Of a stretch of DNA of 64,000 nt, positions 56,549 through 63,644 are shown in pieces. The notes beneath the pieces are model-generated. The model saw only the letters and a program-made list of their open reading frames with translations, did no database searches and was not told the origin of the DNA. Both the position numbers and the translations under genes were made by a program. Where the stretch lies: NCBI RefSeq assembly GCF_039534975.1, contig NZ_BAAAWH010000001.1, positions 310,001 through 374,000 of the forward strand. Direction: 5' to 3'. The stretch comes from Microbacterium terregens (GTDB lineage: Bacteria > Actinomycetota > Actinomycetes > Actinomycetales > Microbacteriaceae). Positions within the stretch are counted from its first letter, which is position 1. Every line of letters begins with the position of its first letter.

Positions 56549-56621
56549 GGGGCCTTAGCTCAGTTGGTAGAGCGCCTGCTTTGCAAGCAGGATGTCAGGA
56601 GTTCGAATCTCCTAGGCTCCA
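56549..56621 (+). tRNA. tRNA-Ala (anticodon TGC), integration target
   Basis: The 73-nt cloverleaf has acceptor stem GGGGCCT/AGGCTCC, anticodon TGC at 56582-56584 and T-arm GGAGTTCGAATCTCC. CCA is not encoded. Its 3' half is the left att copy of the 7-kb element, so the gene has been restored by the element's own sequence. Confidence 0.97.
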
Positions 56622-56622
56622 C
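56574..56622. repeat. attL of the integrated element
   Basis: This 49-bp sequence, from the anticodon stem to just past the 3' end of tRNA-Ala, is repeated at 63596-63644 with one mismatch (A at 56607, T at 63629). It marks the left junction of the element. Confidence 0.9.
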
Positions 56623-56640
56623 AGTCCAGAAGTCCCCTGA

Positions 56641-57861
56641 TCAGAGCGCCTTTCCGGCCTCCTGCTCGGGGGACTTTCTCGTTGCCTCCAGAGCCGTTCG
56701 TGCCATGGTCGTGCCAGTAGCGGTCCCGATCGACCCTCCGGAGAGGGCATCCATACCCGCCGCGATCGCCCCGGAGCGCTCCTCCGCCGCGTGCTGGTAG
56801 AGCAGAGCCGCCCGGGCGGTCGAGTGTCCCGCGCGGGCCATGAGTTCGCGGGTCGTCGCGCCCGCCTGAGCCGCCAGAGTGAGGCTCGCGTGCCGCAGAT
56901 CGTGGAGCCGGAACTGGGACAGTCCAGCCCTGCGAGCCGCCTTCCGCCAGGCCTGGCCGATCGCCCCTCCGGTGAACCGTTCGCCGTCCGAGCCGGGGAA
57001 CATCGGAGCCTTGCCGAACCCGGGAGCGGTCGAGAGGTAGATCTCCAGATCCGCCGCGATGCTCGGCGGGAGATCCACCCTCCGAACGTTGCCCGTCTTG
57101 GTGCCGCTCTCGATCTCGTCGCCGCCGACGCGGACGATCTGCCGCTCGACCAGGAGGACCCCGCCCGCGTAGTCCCGCCGCTGGAGCGCGAGGAGTTCAC
57201 CGAGGCGGAGATGCGCGCCAAACATGACTCGGATAGGCAGATGCCACTTCGCCGGCATCGCCGCGACGATCCGCCCGAGATCCTCGGCGCTCATGTACGG
57301 GCGCTCTGCATGCTTCACCGATCCGGCGCGGTCGATCTGGCAGGGGTTCGCGGGGATTATCCCGTCCCGCACGGCGGTCGCCATGATCGCCCGGAGGAGG
57401 CTGTAGGCCTGGCGGAGTCGAGATGATCCGTCGCCGCCTTGCCGCTTGGCGGATGCCGCGAGCGCTCGGCCCGTCTTCGTGTACCAGGCGCGGACCTGGG
57501 AGGGAGTGATCGAGGCGATCGGCATCTCCCGGAGCGGAGTGAGTGGACCGGCGAGCGTCGTCTCGTAGAGATCTCGAGTCTTGGGCGCGAGCGCTCCTCG
57601 GCGTCCCCCGTGGGCGATCCAGTCGGCGGCATACGGGCCGAACGGAACGAGCCCTGCGCGGTGGTCGATGTAGGTTCCGCGCATCCGATCGGAGCGCACG
57701 GCGGCGAGATGATCGAGCGCCTCCCGCTTCGTCTGGAACGTCTGAGGGCCGGTCATGGGGCGTCCTGCCGGGTCGAGATAGCGGGACTGCCACCGCCCGG
57801 AGGGGAGTTTGCGGACCGATCCGAAGTCGATTCGAGAACTTTTCCTGGTGCTCGTTGTCAT
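56641..57861 (-). CDS. int: Tyrosine site-specific integrase
   Basis: The 406-residue protein has an N-terminal arm-binding-like part (SVRKLPSGRWQSRYLDPAGR), a core-binding SAM-like domain (about 65-160) and a catalytic domain. The active-site residues are Arg in FGAHLRLGELLAL, HxxR in RLHDLRHASLTLA, His in AGHSTARAALLY, and Tyr in the same block. Its 3' end lies 19 nt inside attL, as usual for tRNA-targeted elements. The ATG follows an AAAGG site. Confidence 0.95.
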   Translation of the reverse strand: MTTSTRKSSRIDFGSVRKLPSGRWQSRYLDPAGRPMTGPQTFQTKREALDHLAAVRSDRMRGTYIDHRAGLVPFGPYAADWIAHGGRRGALAPKTRDLYETTLAGPLTPLREMPIASITPSQVRAWYTKTGRALAASAKRQGGDGSSRLRQAYSLLRAIMATAVRDGIIPANPCQIDRAGSVKHAERPYMSAEDLGRIVAAMPAKWHLPIRVMFGAHLRLGELLALQRRDYAGGVLLVERQIVRVGGDEIESGTKTGNVRRVDLPPSIAADLEIYLSTAPGFGKAPMFPGSDGERFTGGAIGQAWRKAARRAGLSQFRLHDLRHASLTLAAQAGATTRELMARAGHSTARAALLYQHAAEERSGAIAAGMDALSGGSIGTATGTTMARTALEATRKSPEQEAGKAL

Positions 57862-57951
57862 GGGTTCTGCCTTTCGTCGGGAGTGCCTGGTTTCGGTGCC
57901 TGATCTGATCTTTCCTGCGTTCGCCTCGGATCTCACCGTGGGGTCTACTTA

Positions 57952-58008
57952 GTTCTCATGATGGGAACAAACTCCAGGTCAGAGTAGGAATCAGTGTCGC
58001 AAAGACAC
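57952..58008. promoter_or_regulatory. Possible operators between int and the AlpA-like gene
   Basis: The near-palindrome GTTCTCATGATGGGAAC (57952-57968) and the perfect GTGTCGCAAAGACAC (57994-58008) lie in the divergent control region. They are candidate sites for the AlpA-like protein or another regulator. Nothing here proves it. Confidence 0.35.
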
Positions 58009-58059
58009 CCTATTCTGATCCCAGGACACCGGCCCGAACCGAACGAACGGAACCCAGAG

Positions 58060-58281
58060 ATGACCACCACAGCCCCTGCTTCCGAGCGGCACGCCCTCAC
58101 GATCGAGGACCTCCACGGACGCGCCACCTGCACCGTCCCCGAGGCCGCGCAGATCCTCGGGATAGGCACCTGGTCGGCCTACGAGGCGATCAAGCGCGAC
58201 GAGATCCCCGTGCTCCGCATCGGCAAGCGCATCCTCATCCCCGTCCCTCGCCTCCGCGCCCTCCTCGGCGCAGACGCCTGA
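58060..58281 (+). CDS. AlpA/MerR-like helix-turn-helix excisionase or regulator
   Basis: The 73-residue protein has a winged-helix excisionase fold: CTVPEAAQILGIGTWSAYEA, then IKRDEIPVLRIGKRILIPVP. Such proteins act as recombination directionality factors or activators in integrative elements. It is divergent from int, with 198 nt between, and is the first gene of the rightward group. Confidence 0.85.
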   Translation: MTTTAPASERHALTIEDLHGRATCTVPEAAQILGIGTWSAYEAIKRDEIPVLRIGKRILIPVPRLRALLGADA

Positions 58282-58325
58282 TCCCCTCCAGCACGAGATC
58301 CCAACAGCGACAGATCGGGCGCGAG

Positions 58326-59246
58326 ATGAACGACGACGGCGAGAGGTTCGCCCAGGTGCCGCACTGGCTCCAGGACAACGCGCACGCACTGGGCATCGGC
58401 CCGGGCGGCATCGCGGCCTACGCCGTGCTCTATCGGCGCGCGGACTGGAGCACGGGGCTGATCGAGACGGTGGGCATGGAAACGATCGCCCGTCTCTCCG
58501 GAAGCGGAAGCCGGATGACCGCGACCGCCGCCGTCAAGCAACTACTCCACGCGGGGCTCCTGGAGATCGTGACCCGCCGTCGCACCCAGCCCCACATCTA
58601 CCGGCTGAGACTCCCCGCCGAGGGTCCGCCCTCCTCGGTTGGTGTCCAGAATCTAGCCACCATGGGCGATGCCGAGACTGCCGACCAGGCTCCCGTCACC
58701 GACGACGAGAAGGATCTTGGTGCCCAAAATCTAGCCACCGGGTGCCTAGAAATTGGCCACCATGGTGCCCAGAATCTAGCCACATTCAGATCTACAGATC
58801 TCTCCAGATCTCTAAAGGCCGATCCCTCCGGGCTCGCCGGGGCAATGCCCGCCAAGTCGGGCGACCCCGAGGAGATCGGCTCCGCCGTCTCCAGCCTCGC
58901 CCAGACAGACCATCTCGCGATCGGATCATCCGCTCCCAACGTCGGGACAGGTGACCTCACCTCGACGGGTGACCGACCAAGCCATAGATCCCCGCGCGCC
59001 CGCGCCAGCCGCGCGCAGATCCTCTGGCTCCGCGACCTCCGCGCCATGACCGGAACCGGACTCGAGAACCCGGACCCCCTGACCGTGCACGACGCCGACG
59101 CCGAGATCCGGGACCTCTGGCCCGAGATCGAACGACGCCGGCACCGGGGCGATCCCCTCGACGGCAACTACTGGGACCTCAGTCCGCGAGCCCGCGTCTA
59201 TGTGGACGAGCACGATCTCGATATCGACCGAAGGGAAGCATCATGA
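58326..59246 (+). CDS. Replication-initiator-like winged-helix protein with internal iterons
   Basis: This is a 306-residue protein. Residues about 8-95 are a winged-helix domain (VPHWLQDNAHALGIGPGGIA, then MTATAAVKQLLHAGLLEIVT) like the N-terminus of phage and plasmid replication proteins. A low-complexity middle (about 105-230) is partly encoded by DNA repeats that read as QNLAT three times. The C-terminal part (RAQILWLRDLRAMTGTGLEN) is helical. The repeats suggest that the origin lies inside the gene, as in the lambda O gene. No helicase or primase is encoded, so host DnaB may be recruited; this is inference. Confidence 0.65.
   Translation: MNDDGERFAQVPHWLQDNAHALGIGPGGIAAYAVLYRRADWSTGLIETVGMETIARLSGSGSRMTATAAVKQLLHAGLLEIVTRRRTQPHIYRLRLPAEGPPSSVGVQNLATMGDAETADQAPVTDDEKDLGAQNLATGCLEIGHHGAQNLATFRSTDLSRSLKADPSGLAGAMPAKSGDPEEIGSAVSSLAQTDHLAIGSSAPNVGTGDLTSTGDRPSHRSPRARASRAQILWLRDLRAMTGTGLENPDPLTVHDADAEIRDLWPEIERRRHRGDPLDGNYWDLSPRARVYVDEHDLDIDRREAS
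58641..58783. repeat. Iteron-like repeats inside the replication gene
   Basis: Four copies of about 20 bp with consensus GGTGCCCAGAATCTAGCCAC lie at 58641, 58719, 58741 and 58764. The last three are 22-23 bp apart, about two helical turns. Copy 3 has several changes. This pattern is typical of replication-initiator binding sites. Confidence 0.8.
58788..58811. repeat. AGATCT repeats beside the iterons
   Basis: AGATCT occurs at 58788, 58796 and 58806, within an AT-richer stretch directly downstream of the iterons. It could be part of the unwinding region of an origin. Confidence 0.55.
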
Positions 59247-59635
59247 GCGAGCGAGACATCCGCCAGTTCCGGCGAGCGCAGGAGACGATCGGGCAGACAC
59301 GAACCGCCGCCCGCGCCGCCTCGACTCCCGACCACGCCCGGGATGCGCTCCTCGCGCAGATCCGCCGCACCCTCGACACCCCCGATCGGGTAAGTCTCCG
59401 CCGCGCGAAGGACGAACGGGATCGGGCCGTGAAGGGCTACGGCTCCGCCCTCGACTACTCGCAGGGCTGGGTGGCCGACTCGGTGCGTCGATACGTGGGG
59501 GCGATCTCAGCCGAGGCGGCGGCGAACCGGGCCGAGGTCCGCCAGACGAGGGAACTACTCGCCGCGCTCCTCGCCCTCCACGACCGCCAGAGCAAGACAC
59601 CCATAGAGCAAGACACATCGGAGGGTCCAGCATGA
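59243..59635 (+). CDS. Small helical protein, unknown
   Basis: The 130-residue protein is predicted to be all alpha and rich in Arg, Ala and Glu (AQETIGQTRTAARAASTPDH and VRRYVGAISAEAAANRAEVR). No family recognised. It overlaps its neighbours by 4 nt on both sides, so it is part of the replication/terminase operon of the element. Confidence 0.65.
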   Translation: MSERDIRQFRRAQETIGQTRTAARAASTPDHARDALLAQIRRTLDTPDRVSLRRAKDERDRAVKGYGSALDYSQGWVADSVRRYVGAISAEAAANRAEVRQTRELLAALLALHDRQSKTPIEQDTSEGPA

Positions 59636-60189
59636 CCACGACCAAGGGCAAGACCCGAACCCAGATCGCCGCGTCGGCTCGGGAGCGGGAGGCGCGAGCC
59701 CTGGATCTCCGCCTCCTCGGCTACTCTTACGACCGCATCGCACGCGAACTCGGATTCGCCCATCGGAGCGCGGCGCGGAAGTCGGTCGAGCGGGCACTCA
59801 AGGCGATCCCTCGGGAGGCGGCGCTCGAACTTCGACAGATCGAACTGGAGCGTCTCGATCTCGCGCAACAGCGGATCGCCAAGCAGATCATGAGCGGGCA
59901 TCTCGGCGCGATCGACCGGCTCCTCCGGATCATGGACCACCGGGCGAAGTTGCTGGGACTGTACGAGCCTCAGCCGGACTCGGGCATCGCTGAGGTCGTG
60001 GCGGTCCTCGGCGCATGGCTCGGGCAGGTCCGCGAGGAGGACGAAGCCCTGGACGCCTATCTGCCGGATTCGGAGCCTCAGGCCCCCCCAGGACCCCCTG
60101 GAAGGCGAGAACGCTCGGCAGACGCGAGCAGAGAGCGTCTGAGACGCATGTACGAGGATCTGGAGGCCAGGAGCCGATCAGATCCGTAG
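59632..60189 (+). CDS. Small-terminase-like DNA-binding protein
   Basis: The 185-residue protein has an N-terminal helix-turn-helix (LDLRLLGYSYDRIARELGFA then HRSAARKSVERALKAIP) followed by helices ending LGAIDRLLRIMDHRAKLLGL. This arrangement matches, from memory, small terminase-like proteins of actinobacteriophages. In a satellite it could redirect phage packaging. A plain transcription regulator is the alternative. It overlaps the upstream gene by 4 nt. Confidence 0.6.
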   Translation: MTTTKGKTRTQIAASAREREARALDLRLLGYSYDRIARELGFAHRSAARKSVERALKAIPREAALELRQIELERLDLAQQRIAKQIMSGHLGAIDRLLRIMDHRAKLLGLYEPQPDSGIAEVVAVLGAWLGQVREEDEALDAYLPDSEPQAPPGPPGRRERSADASRERLRRMYEDLEARSRSDP

Positions 60190-60192
60190 ATC

Positions 60193-60220
60193 TATCCACA
60201 TATCCACAGCCCTATCCACA
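60193..60220. repeat. Three TATCCACA repeats
   Basis: TATCCACA occurs at 60193-60200, 60201-60208 and 60213-60220. With the preceding base each is one mismatch from the DnaA box TTATCCACA. They precede the gene at 60236 and could bind DnaA. Confidence 0.6.
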
Positions 60221-60235
60221 GATCAGGAGATCATC

Positions 60236-60928
60236 ATGACCAGCACTCACACCGCCGCCCTCGCCGGGTTCTTCCGGGATGCGCACGCCGCCGTCTCGAC
60301 CCAGGACCGCGACAAGACACCGGAGGCGAACTCCCGCGCACAGCGGGAGGCGCTCGCCCGCGCTCGGGCCGTGCTCGCCGCTCGCATCCCCGCCGTCAAC
60401 GAGCCGAGCGGCCCGGACCGCTCGCAGGTCCTCGCCAGCATCCGCCCGACCACCGCCGACTCCCTCGCCCTCGCCGCCCGCGAGCGGGAGAAGGTCGAGG
60501 CTCTCCGGAAGGCCGGTCGTCGCCTGGATCAGATCATCGCCACCGCATCCCCGGAACGGCTCGGCGCGATCCTCGACAGCCTGGAAATCATGCCCGAGGT
60601 CCTCGCGTCGTCGGAGGGCTCCGAGATCGTCGCGGAGTTCGAGTCGCTCGCCTTCGACCGGCTTGCCACTCTCGGGCATGAGCCCGCCGTCGAGCGGCTC
60701 CGCGCCGAAGAGTCCGCCGCCCCGGTTGCCGCCTGGTCGCGCGTGCTGACGGAGGCGCTCACCGGTCCGGTGACCGTGGGCGCGTGGACGGCGCTCTACC
60801 GCGCGGACGAGGCCGGGTATCGGGAGGCCCAGGCGTCCGAGATCGACGGGCTCGGGGAGGCGCTCCACCGCTCGGATCGGGAGCAAAGGCGAGCCGACCT
60901 CGCGGATGCTCAGTCCGCCGCCACCTGA
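60236..60928 (+). CDS. Hypothetical helical protein of the element
   Basis: The 230-residue soluble protein is rich in Ala, Arg and Glu and probably all-helical (SLALAAREREKVEALRKAGR, RADEAGYREAQASEIDGLGE). It has no recognised domain. It is the last rightward gene of the element, 46 nt after the terminase-like gene, with a AGGAGATC site before the ATG. Confidence 0.65.
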   Translation: MTSTHTAALAGFFRDAHAAVSTQDRDKTPEANSRAQREALARARAVLAARIPAVNEPSGPDRSQVLASIRPTTADSLALAAREREKVEALRKAGRRLDQIIATASPERLGAILDSLEIMPEVLASSEGSEIVAEFESLAFDRLATLGHEPAVERLRAEESAAPVAAWSRVLTEALTGPVTVGAWTALYRADEAGYREAQASEIDGLGEALHRSDREQRRADLADAQSAAT

Positions 60929-60979
60929 CCCTCGAATCAGCGAGTGCCCTGGTGCCCCACCGGATGCCGGGGCACTCCC

Positions 60980-61768
60980 CTAAGCGTTCTCGGGCGGATA
61001 GTCGCTAAGTGCGTTCTTCATCGCGACCGAACCCACGATCGCAGACATAATGCCGTCAGTCCCAGCACGTACCTCCGCCTGGACGCTCTCGCTACTCAAC
61101 AGCGAGGACAGGTCTAGGCCAAGCAGTTCCTTCGTATACGCGGCGGCATCGTCAGCGATCAGGAAAAGCCACCCTGCTCGCTTCAGGCGGGCGATCGCTT
61201 CGGCACGTGGCGAGATTCCGCTGAAAACTAGGTAGATCGGAACGAGGCCCTCTGCGATGAGGCCCTCGGCCATCGCTACATCCTTGCGCAGTCGAGCACT
61301 GTCGTTCGGGTTGAAGTTGTAGCGGATCTCGATTCCGAGCCCGCGGCGCGCTGGATCGACGGCTTGGCCAGTTGCGGCTTCTGTTGCCGCGAGTGCCAGC
61401 ACTCGATCCTCCTCGGTTAGCAATGAGAAGGGGATGCACACGTCAAGGTTCAGCCCGACGATCTTGGCAGCGACATCACTCGGCGTGAGGCCGAATCTGG
61501 CGGCCGCGACATACTTCGGCAGGTTGTCGTACAACTCACCTAGGCGTCTGCCGATGCTGATGCTCATCCGGCCCATAAGGCGGATGAGCACGTAGCCGTT
61601 GGAAGCCAGCCCGAACTGCGCGTAGACCGGGTCGGACTCCAGACTGGCCAACTCTTTTGACGAATTGCCGACACTGAAGTCGTTGTCGACCTTGTCTTGC
61701 CACCCCATCAGCGCACGTCGAAGAAGTTCCAGAAAACGGGCCTGCGTCTTCTCGGGCGACTCAGCCAT
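60980..61768 (-). CDS. Probable type II restriction endonuclease
   Basis: The 262-residue protein overlaps the controller gene by 8 nt, the usual place of a restriction enzyme in C-linked systems. A plausible PD-(D/E)xK core is LDVCIPFSLL with Asp, followed by GLGIEIRYNFN, where Arg replaces the usual Lys. The C-terminal part (VPIYLVFSGISPRAEAIARL, then LLGLDLSSLL) recalls ApaLI-type enzymes in layout. Identity as an endonuclease rests mainly on context. Its codon use is less GC-rich than that of its neighbours, suggesting transfer. Confidence 0.6.
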   Translation of the reverse strand: MAESPEKTQARFLELLRRALMGWQDKVDNDFSVGNSSKELASLESDPVYAQFGLASNGYVLIRLMGRMSISIGRRLGELYDNLPKYVAAARFGLTPSDVAAKIVGLNLDVCIPFSLLTEEDRVLALAATEAATGQAVDPARRGLGIEIRYNFNPNDSARLRKDVAMAEGLIAEGLVPIYLVFSGISPRAEAIARLKRAGWLFLIADDAAAYTKELLGLDLSSLLSSESVQAEVRAGTDGIMSAIVGSVAMKNALSDYPPENA

Positions 61769-61988
61769 TCAGCCCGCCTGAGCAGAGAAGTCGGTCTGTG
61801 TCGATTTCTAGAGCGGCAGCGATCTTCTCGACAGCGGCAAGGCTCGCGTTGGCCGTTCCGCGCTCGATTTGACCGACATAAGTTCGGTGAAGTCCCGCGT
61901 GTTCCGCCAGACGTTCCTGGCTCAATCCACGATCAGCCCGGTACGCGGCGACTCGACCCGCTAGTCGTTCAGTAAGGCCATCTGTCAC
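61761..61988 (-). CDS. Controller (C) protein of the restriction-modification system
   Basis: The 75-residue XRE-type helix-turn-helix protein (VAAYRADRGLSQERLAEHAG then HRTYVGQIERGTANASLAAV) has the size and form of C proteins. These delay endonuclease production until the methylase has protected the DNA. It starts with GTG, 48 nt after the methyltransferase stop, and overlaps the next gene by 8 nt. Confidence 0.8.
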   Translation of the reverse strand: MTDGLTERLAGRVAAYRADRGLSQERLAEHAGLHRTYVGQIERGTANASLAAVEKIAAALEIDTDRLLCSGGLNG

Positions 61989-62036
61989 ACACCAACGCTG
62001 GTCGACCCAGCCGGGGATAGCGACAGAATATAGTCA

Positions 62037-63308
62037 TTAATTCGATGCGCGAGCGCTCACCGTCACTTCGGTCAGACCCACTCCGCTGTTTCGTTTGCGG
62101 AGAACGTCCTGCTCCACCTGATCAAACCCATTCGCTAGAAAGATCTCTCCGAGGATCTCGTGAGTCTCGACCATGATGCCCTTGGACTCGGAATTCCCAA
62201 CAACATAGCCAACATGCGCGCCGTCGCGCAGTTTTGGGCGAACTGCTCCGACCTGGATATCCATCGAGTTGAAGTACTTGGTCACGTAATTGCCCATGAG
62301 CGTCGACTCTTCGTGCAGGCGCTCGATCACGGCACCGGCAGCCTTCTCCACGATGGGGCGGGGCTCAACAACACCCTTCATCAGTCGGCTCGTTGCACTT
62401 CCCCAGGTGCCTCCGATGGTCTGCATGTCCAGAGCGGCAGCCTCCTTCGAAGTGGAGATGAACTCGAGGAGGTAAAGGTGGGGGCGGGTGTTCCAGACGT
62501 AACTGTAGCGATTCGGATACGGCGGCGAGGTGAACACCGCGTCGATGGACCCGTCCTCCACGAAATCGAGGATGGTGCTGTCTGCGTTGTGTATCGTCGC
62601 GGTTGCGGTGGGAAAGTCGTCTGAGATCCCCAGATCTGCGGCCATCTTCTCGACCATCTGACTGAACGGCTCGAATACGTGGATCTCGTGGTGCGAGCGA
62701 TTCACGAAGGCAACCTGCAAGCGTCCAAGCGTGATGTTCGCGGTTGAGTAGACGATCTGAGCGAGTGCCAACTTCAAGTGGTTTGCGAGGGCGGCATCCT
62801 GTTGGTTGATGGCGTGACGGACAGCCACCAACTCGCGGAGAACCTGATCTCGCCACCAACGACTGACGTTGTGGATTGGTGGCAGGGAGTCGCCTAGGAA
62901 CGCTGCAAACGCCTCGGGGTCGTGCGGTCCGCGTAGGACAGACTCTCTAGCGGTGGCCACCACGCGTGCGGAGGCATCCCGGAGTTGTTGCGCCGTTGGC
63001 GTCCAGTCGACGGAGGTTTGGCCGACGAACGCGAGAAATGGATTGATCTCTACACCGATGGAGTCGATCCCCAACTCCTTGGCGACGATGTTGGTCGTTC
63101 CCGCTCCAGCGAAGGGCTCCAGCACGGTCTGCCCAGGTGTGATGCCGTACTTCGATAGCCACCCTCGTACGAGATCCGGCGAGAAACTCGGAGTAAGGCG
63201 GAACCATCGATGGAACGGAGCATCGAGCCCACCTTCGAACGTCACGGCAGCGCGACGCGACCGTTTTGATGCGGTCGGTTCGAGGAGTTCCAGCCCGGGA
63301 AGTGTCAT
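62037..63308 (-). CDS. DNA methyltransferase of the type II system (N4-cytosine or N6-adenine)
   Basis: The 423-residue protein has SAM motif I LEPFAGAGTTNIVAKELG (about residues 62-80) and catalytic motif IV FTSPPYPNRYSYVWN (about 263-277). TSPPY favours N4-cytosine methylation, though N6-adenine enzymes can also have it. The long spacing between motifs leaves room for a target-recognition region. It is transcribed before the C and endonuclease genes. Sequence specificity unknown. Confidence 0.85.
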   Translation of the reverse strand: MTLPGLELLEPTASKRSRRAAVTFEGGLDAPFHRWFRLTPSFSPDLVRGWLSKYGITPGQTVLEPFAGAGTTNIVAKELGIDSIGVEINPFLAFVGQTSVDWTPTAQQLRDASARVVATARESVLRGPHDPEAFAAFLGDSLPPIHNVSRWWRDQVLRELVAVRHAINQQDAALANHLKLALAQIVYSTANITLGRLQVAFVNRSHHEIHVFEPFSQMVEKMAADLGISDDFPTATATIHNADSTILDFVEDGSIDAVFTSPPYPNRYSYVWNTRPHLYLLEFISTSKEAAALDMQTIGGTWGSATSRLMKGVVEPRPIVEKAAGAVIERLHEESTLMGNYVTKYFNSMDIQVGAVRPKLRDGAHVGYVVGNSESKGIMVETHEILGEIFLANGFDQVEQDVLRKRNSGVGLTEVTVSARASN

Positions 63309-63595
63309 GCAACGACTTTACCCAAAGGGCTCCCGCCTCGACGGTGAGCCGCCCCCGGCTTACGCAGATCGTTTGGCGCAATTTCTAGAGCGTCGGTCTT
63401 GCATGGGCTTCCAGATGGGTTCGGACCATGCGTGTAGGCGTTCGAATCCCGGGATGGCTTTGGGGTGTCGGTGCCGTGCCAGAGTCGTGCCACTAGGGGG
63501 CCATTCGTGCCACAACTCACCCCAACAGGGCCAAACGAGAGGGGCCCGAGATCCCGTGATTCGGCGGGATTCCGGGCCTCGCCGTGTACCGTAGT
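63309..63595. other. Gene-free right end of the element with integrase arm-like sites
   Basis: TCGTGCCA occurs at 63485-63492 and 63505-63512, and a related GCCGTGCCA lies just before. The same octamer is near the left end, inside int, at 56698 and 56709. The longer match GTCGTGCCANTAGNGG occurs at both ends. These are probable arm-type binding sites. No gene is evident here. Confidence 0.5.
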
Positions 63596-63644
63596 GCCTG
63601 CTTTGCAAGCAGGATGTCAGGAGTTCGATTCTCCTAGGCTCCAC
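63596..63644. repeat. attR of the integrated element
   Basis: This 49-bp copy of the tRNA-Ala 3' half has one mismatch to attL. The rest of the tRNA is missing, so this is the original chromosomal end displaced by integration, not a tRNA gene. Confidence 0.9.

Follow-up and report, generated by a model that had tools for sequence, protein, structure and literature searches.

A probable phage satellite of the PICI-like kind, carrying a type II restriction-modification cassette, in a tRNA-Ala gene of Microbacterium terregens

Identification of the element

The DNA analysed here (the window, 64,000 bp of Microbacterium terregens contig NZ_BAAAWH010000001.1, bp 310001-374000) contains a 7.0-kb element located in a tRNA-Ala gene. 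This element is bounded by att repeats, encodes a relative of the small terminase subunit (TerS) of Microbacterium phages, carries no virion or transfer genes and belongs to a family found in Microbacterium and other Microbacteriaceae genomes. We interpret it, with a probability of roughly 0.84, as a satellite of Microbacterium phages that resembles the phage-inducible chromosomal islands (PICIs), is a member of this Microbacteriaceae-wide family and carries a type II restriction-modification (R-M) cassette. The best reading of the family is that its members use their own TerS to divert the packaging of virulent Microbacterium phages, with induction, packaging and transfer predicted from gene content. 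A PICI-like satellite had also been the original prediction for this locus, and it is supported by the kinship of TerS and by relatives that, as a rule, lack transfer genes.

The element lies between direct repeats of 52 nt (+ strand), attL at bp 56571-56622 and attR at bp 63593-63644, which are identical at 50 of 52 positions and are separated by 7,022 bp from start to start. As originally proposed, the integration site is a tRNA-Ala gene: attL is the 3' part of a tRNA-Ala(TGC) gene (bp 56549-56622). The second copy of this tRNA end, attR, is followed by a hairpin with a T-run, which is consistent with the tRNA operon's own terminator having been displaced by insertion. When the 3.57-Mb genome was searched with a 41-nt att core, allowing three mismatches or fewer, two copies were found, while the same core read backwards as a control gave none. 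Precise repeats of 49 bp had been described previously; the repeats are real, but the 49-bp stretch contains one mismatch and is not strictly exact. Based on the att spacing, the excised circle is predicted to be 7,022 bp in size.

The small terminase gene

The gene at bp 59632-60189 (+ strand) was originally described as small-terminase-like, with a hidden Markov model search proposed as the check. In such a search the protein matches phrog_645 (E-value: 4.8e-26), and over 57-66% of its length it is 51.6-53.8% identical to gene 1 of Microbacterium foliorum phages (Appavirus), which precedes the genes for the large terminase subunit (TerL) and portal protein. Seven of the ten best matching phage records carry the name "terminase small subunit", and a terminase gene is found downstream of gene 1 in all 11 phages whose records were read. 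In a TerS tree, the satellite proteins form a clade beside Appavirus (joint clade support: 94/95). On the strength of this relationship to phage TerS proteins whose genes precede TerL, we consider the 59632 protein to be a relative of small terminases. An "Rnase E" function was rejected, as it is a mere label attached to phrog_645 in PHROGs and to some RefSeq records, and it looks wrong because in each of the 11 phages the next gene of this kind downstream is a terminase gene.

A family of related elements

A TerS profile has matches in 34 of 366 Microbacterium genomes and in 13 of a set of 398 from the Microbacteriaceae; the two sets overlap, and the window's own genome is in both. All 46 places matched by this profile other than the window's own were examined as TerS-bearing loci. 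Strains carrying an element of this kind include M. kyungheense, M. memoriense and Cryobacterium sp. BB307. In 21 of the 46 loci, int and terS are flanked by a tRNA gene on one side and a second copy of that gene's end on the other, giving elements of 4.4-12.4 kb in genes for tRNAs of Ala, Val, Pro, Thr, Gly, Tyr, Arg and Lys. Their att repeats are 43-68 nt in length, except in L104 (27 nt), L126 (29 nt) and L136 (21 nt, doubtful). When compared with TerL, portal and major capsid proteins from eight phages, none of the 21 has a match inside the element (a short portal-like match in L102 lies outside of its element), and 16 also carry orf6, a gene described below. Among the other 25 loci, eight have TerL, portal or capsid matches. 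Three relatives (L102, L103 and L105) occupy the same tRNA-Ala site as the window's element: the integrases of these four elements are 86-96% identical, their rep genes are 38-59% identical and the slot following orf6 is different in each.

Tape measure genes and candidate helpers

A tape measure protein (TMP) gene is found in three of the 21 tRNA-bounded elements (L107, L112 and L117) and in L207, which was identified using tmp and orf6 profiles. The L107 TMP is 85.9% identical over its full length to that of phage Phonegingi; the leading DNA match of this element to a phage is the tmp gene only (86.9%), and the best match of its TerS is to the same phage (60%). For L117, the best matches of both TMP (70%) and TerS (50%) are to DelaGarza, Lesiram and Gingerbug, and the TMP and TerS of L112 likewise agree with each other in the phage group that they resemble (among the eight phages compared). 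L207 is a 10.5-kb element at a tRNA-Lys gene (L207:2188-12778) with int, AlpA-like genes, orf6 and tmp; it has no TerS of the family type, and a phrog_5536 helix-turn-helix (HTH) gene follows its tmp. No tmp resembling those of L107, L112, L117 or L207 is present in the window's genome. Shorter tails as a consequence of satellite TMPs were considered and rejected: the L107 TMP, at 753 aa, falls short of the 820 aa of its Pickles13 counterpart but is equal in length to that of Phonegingi, its closest phage (bp 11365-13626).

No integrase is listed in the records of the Appavirus phages Pickles13, Phonegingi and Bush or in that of DelaGarza. These phages therefore look virulent, and a helper of this kind would arrive by infection. 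Helpers arrive in this way for the PICMIs of Vibrionaceae (phage-inducible chromosomal minimalist islands; PMC10803314) and for the PLEs of Vibrio cholerae (PICI-like elements; PMC12987554). The family points to concrete candidate helpers, the M. foliorum phages with deposited genomes, which makes the satellite claim directly testable. We also put forward, tentatively and at less than even odds, the idea that satellites take terS, and in some cases tmp, from the phage lineage that they exploit, such that a swap of one or two genes would redirect the satellite to another helper, with int, rep, orf6 and the defence slot left in place. If this is true, chimeric tails built on a satellite TMP would occur in a second lineage besides the PLEs, and phages from culture collections, Phonegingi and DelaGarza among them, would be near relatives of the helpers.

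Integration, regulation and replication genes

Adjoining attL on the minus strand is int (bp 56641-57936), which encodes a tyrosine integrase (PF00589, E-value: 1.3e-10; phrog_1, E-value: 5.8e-48). The alpA-like gene, rep, orf4, terS and orf6 run divergently from it. The int and alpA-like genes are separated by a 57-bp gap, and a scan of this gap identified a 17-bp near-palindrome (bp 57952-57968, unstranded) that is a candidate operator. The same site is found between int and alpA in L105 and is absent from the other 17 relatives scanned. The first gene of the divergent unit (bp 57994-58281, + strand) encodes an AlpA/Xis-like HTH protein (HTH_17, E-value: 4.3e-7; TIGR01764 "excise", E-value: 1.9e-5, below the cut-off of that model). 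Both the integrase and the AlpA-like protein are located where they had originally been predicted.

The rep gene (bp 58326-59246, + strand) encodes a putative O-like replication initiator, based on a weak match to phrog_391 (E-value: 5.2e-4). Repeat analysis identified four iterons of approximately 23 nt inside this gene (bp 58639-58784, + strand), one of which is degenerate. When the rep regions of 15 family members were compared, a 10-mer was present at least three times within 300 bp in 12, with a spacing of 20-24 bp in nine. Among 95 control tiles (34 from the window's chromosome, 48 from flanks of the relatives and 13 from other parts of the elements), ten were repeat-positive and none had this spacing. 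The window's rep region is one of the 12 and, because one iteron copy is degenerate, is not one of the nine. The repeat sequence varies from element to element, and L104, L112 and L117 have no iterons in this region. Repeats beyond chance expectation agree with the earlier description of a replication gene with internal iterons, and by analogy with lambda O these iterons are likely a replication origin lying inside rep.

The rep and orf4 genes overlap by 4 bp, as do orf4 and terS. No function was assigned to orf4 (bp 59243-59635, + strand), which is 60-65% identical in L103 and L105. The last gene of the unit, orf6 (bp 60236-60928, + strand), encodes a protein conserved in the family with a predicted all-helical structure (pLDDT: 91.2) and no significant fold match to the model. 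Because orf6 neighbours terS in these elements and an HTH gene in the TerS position in other islands, our guess is that its product may take part in packaging or in helper interference. A profile of orf6 has matches in 36 of the 366 genomes, some of them in another kind of island. The notion that orf6 is exclusive to small satellites was rejected, as it is also found in larger chromosomal islands, two of which have TerL beside it.

These larger islands lie near tRNA-Leu(tag) genes in several Microbacterium genomes, where orf6 homologues are found beside a phrog_5536-type HTH gene in the TerS position (L243, L244, L247, L250 and L251; also L245, L246 and L255). Genes nearby encode an EcoRI-type methylase (L244 and L250), GmrSD (L244), a protein with a weak TIR match (L243) and a primase-polymerase (L246). 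A TMP gene is located approximately 10 kb from the orf6/HTH pair in L243-L247, while in L249 and L252 TerL directly follows the pair. These islands are possibly a second, larger type of satellite, or prophages. In another arrangement (L121/L058, Cryobacterium sp. BB307), int, rep, orf4, terS and orf6 are present, no tRNA repeat was found and the genes just downstream encode a serine recombinase and a primase-polymerase.

A large number of the terS and orf6 homologues are found on metagenome contigs of approximately 5-9 kb. These contigs could be free circles, but they were not used as evidence because att repeats of approximately 50 bp would also break assemblies based on short k-mers. One orf6 homologue (P0126, 89% identical to that of the window) is on a contig of 7,022 bases, equal to the att-to-att distance of the window's element, and att repeats could cut contigs to this length.

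The R-M cassette and the variable slot

The genes named in the original inventory are all present, but that inventory overlooked a type II R-M cassette on the minus strand (bp 60980-63308). Three genes lie side by side, encoding a restriction endonuclease (REase; bp 60980-61768; PADLOC REase_II, E-value: 1.4e-12; no Pfam match), a control (C) protein (bp 61761-61988; PADLOC Control_protein, E-value: 3.4e-17) and a DNA methyltransferase (bp 62037-63308; PADLOC MTase_II, E-value: 1.4e-31; PF01555, E-value: 3.8e-9). By gene content, this cassette fits a type II R-M system. Its G+C content is 59-60%, as compared to 67-73% for the other genes of the element, and it was therefore probably acquired separately.

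The slot following orf6 varies among elements and often contains defence genes. It encodes a C5-methylase and an Eco29kI-type REase in L105, a HIRAN protein and a RelA/SpoT-domain protein that matches PDC-S33, a candidate defence family, in L103, a McrB-N/NOV_C protein in L119 and a C5-methylase and an HNH protein in L117. Among the cargo proteins scanned, two of L102, four of L108 and three of L107 have no Pfam match.

Evaluation of the satellite interpretation

Several observations weigh against a satellite interpretation. First, no resident helper was found: the window's genome contains no Phage_portal or SPP1_portal gene (controls were positive) and no TerL similar to those compared, the latter search having been run without a positive control. 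Second, the TerS clade of the window is sister to the Appavirus proteins and not within them, so the real helper of this element may be unsampled. Third, from approximately residue 150 onwards the TerS tail is read in a different frame from that of its relatives. This is either a real change or a sequencing error, and it might impair the protein; two shorter TerS homologues (155 and 160 aa) lack most of this tail. Fourth, support for the TerS fold is weak, and no pac site was identified in the element. Fifth, the structural-gene test was positive in just 31 of 54 TerS-bearing viral contigs. Because this test misses many phages, the absence of structural genes is less certain for the relatives; it is solid for the window's element, as none of its nine proteins matches a TerL, virion, lysis or transfer protein in four libraries. 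This agrees with the absence of virion and conjugation genes noted originally.

Among the alternatives, we regard as improbable a defence island in which TerS is a decoy that blocks helper packaging, acting together with the R-M system in an island that phages do not transfer. Defence cargo is indeed found in the window and in its relatives, and a stray TerS could compete for TerL. However, excision and replication are implied by the integrase and Xis-like genes, by the intact att sites and by rep, with its origin-like iterons. That the family is found in further genera and in tRNA genes of eight kinds implies transfer.

Integrative plasmids, and elements resembling the actinomycete integrative and conjugative elements (AICEs), are likewise built around an integrase, an Xis-like gene and a Rep at a tRNA gene. 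An element of this type that lost or never had a transfer gene, and that picked up terS by chance, would account for the finding that the best-known capsid-redirection genes of satellites were not recognized here. Such an origin is very unlikely for three reasons. First, AICEs encode an FtsK-type transfer protein, and Pfam analysis identified no relaxase or FtsK domain among the nine proteins of the window's element or among 20 further proteins scanned from relatives (a part of their open reading frames); the original prediction had held that relatives always carrying such genes would point to an integrative plasmid. Second, none of 72,556 plasmid records matches rep (searched with tblastn) or orf6. 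Third, terS accompanies int in 21 tRNA-bounded elements, which between them occupy eight kinds of tRNA gene, and this is not chance.

A decayed prophage that retained int, rep and terS has little to recommend it: terS and the tmp of some relatives are phage genes, and decay does occur, as in two short tRNA-bounded remnants with only a piece of int and a piece of orf6 (L254:8016-12048, 4.0 kb; L256:7884-10617, 2.7 kb), but the window's copy is not of this kind, the gene order is shared across many species with intact att sites and genes, rep and orf6 are unmatched in 50,697 phage records and, when 17 elements were compared with four phages, DNA similarity was, apart from short matches, practically limited to terS and tmp.

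Proposed cycle of the satellite

If the element is a PICI-like satellite, as we favour, its cycle might proceed as follows. Infection by an Appavirus-like virulent phage would trigger the island, and the integrase and AlpA/Xis-like protein, to judge from the att sites and genes, would excise it from the tRNA-Ala gene. Rep would bind the iterons within its own gene and start replication in the manner of lambda O, with a helicase of the helper or host, and replication from this origin would yield island concatemers. TerS, made from the same set of overlapping genes, would mark island DNA and dock on the TerL of the helper. Helper heads would then be filled with concatemers by a headful mechanism, at approximately 5.5 copies per 39 kb; headful packaging is suggested by the presence of TerS and by how widely the elements vary in size. 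The R-M cassette would be exchangeable cargo, protecting the cell that carries it against other phages.

Comparison with known satellites

With Staphylococcus aureus pathogenicity islands (SaPIs) and other PICIs that have their own TerS (PMC6092414), the element shares an integrase gene at one end, a divergent regulator, a replication gene with repeats, its own terS, a variable accessory slot and the absence of structural and lysis genes. It differs in that it is approximately half the usual size, has an AlpA/Xis-like gene in place of the Stl repressor, encodes an O-like rather than a primase-type Rep and has probable helpers that are virulent. As in the PICI definition of that source, an integrase, a replication module and a regulator (here the HTH gene, by prediction) are present and all nine proteins are free of structural or lytic functions, while L107, L112, L117 and L207 carry tmp. 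The PICI size given there is typically approximately 12-15 kb, as compared to 7.0 kb for the window's element and 4.4-12.4 kb for the 21 relatives. The same source further describes PICIs as using att sites that prophages never occupy, as sharing orthologous genes and as depending on a phage for induction and for packaging into its particles. Because its size is outside of this range, and because induction and packaging are predictions, we file the element as PICI-like rather than as a PICI proper, likening it to described PICIs by layout and not by sequence kinship.

Capsid-forming PICIs (cf-PICIs) have their own capsid, portal and TerL genes, none of which are found among the nine proteins here. 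Satellites and candidates from Actinomycetota, namely MulchRoom and MiniFlayer (PMC10690885) and the candidate PICIs of Mycobacterium (PMC10654092), are similar in that some lie at tRNA genes, but their genes include those for capsid and TerL, or a capsid gene was the basis on which they were selected, and the window's element has neither. A survey considered PICIs likely in actinobacteria, with validation lagging (PMC10023795). In the literature searched (preprints excluded, few subscription papers), no satellite was found for Microbacterium or Microbacteriaceae, and a Streptomyces paper was the sole match. A new, PICI-like satellite family is therefore the best reading.

PICMIs (PMC10803314) are likewise small, PICMI115 being 6,110 bp in size; they are likely satellites of virulent phages and would be packaged as concatemers without head remodelling. 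Their insertion site in Vibrionaceae is beside fis and they lack terS, whereas the window's element is in a tRNA-Ala gene and has terS. The PLEs share a tape measure gene with four relatives of the window's element. An own TMP was shown for PLEs in 2026, and putative tmp genes are reported in cf-PICIs (PMC12987554). The likeness to PLEs is one of gene content; the window's element itself has no TMP, and PLEs also carry tail assembly chaperone and hub genes and belong to phage ICP1. The four tmp-bearing members extend this PLE trait to another satellite family, and in three of them TerS and TMP indicate the same phages.

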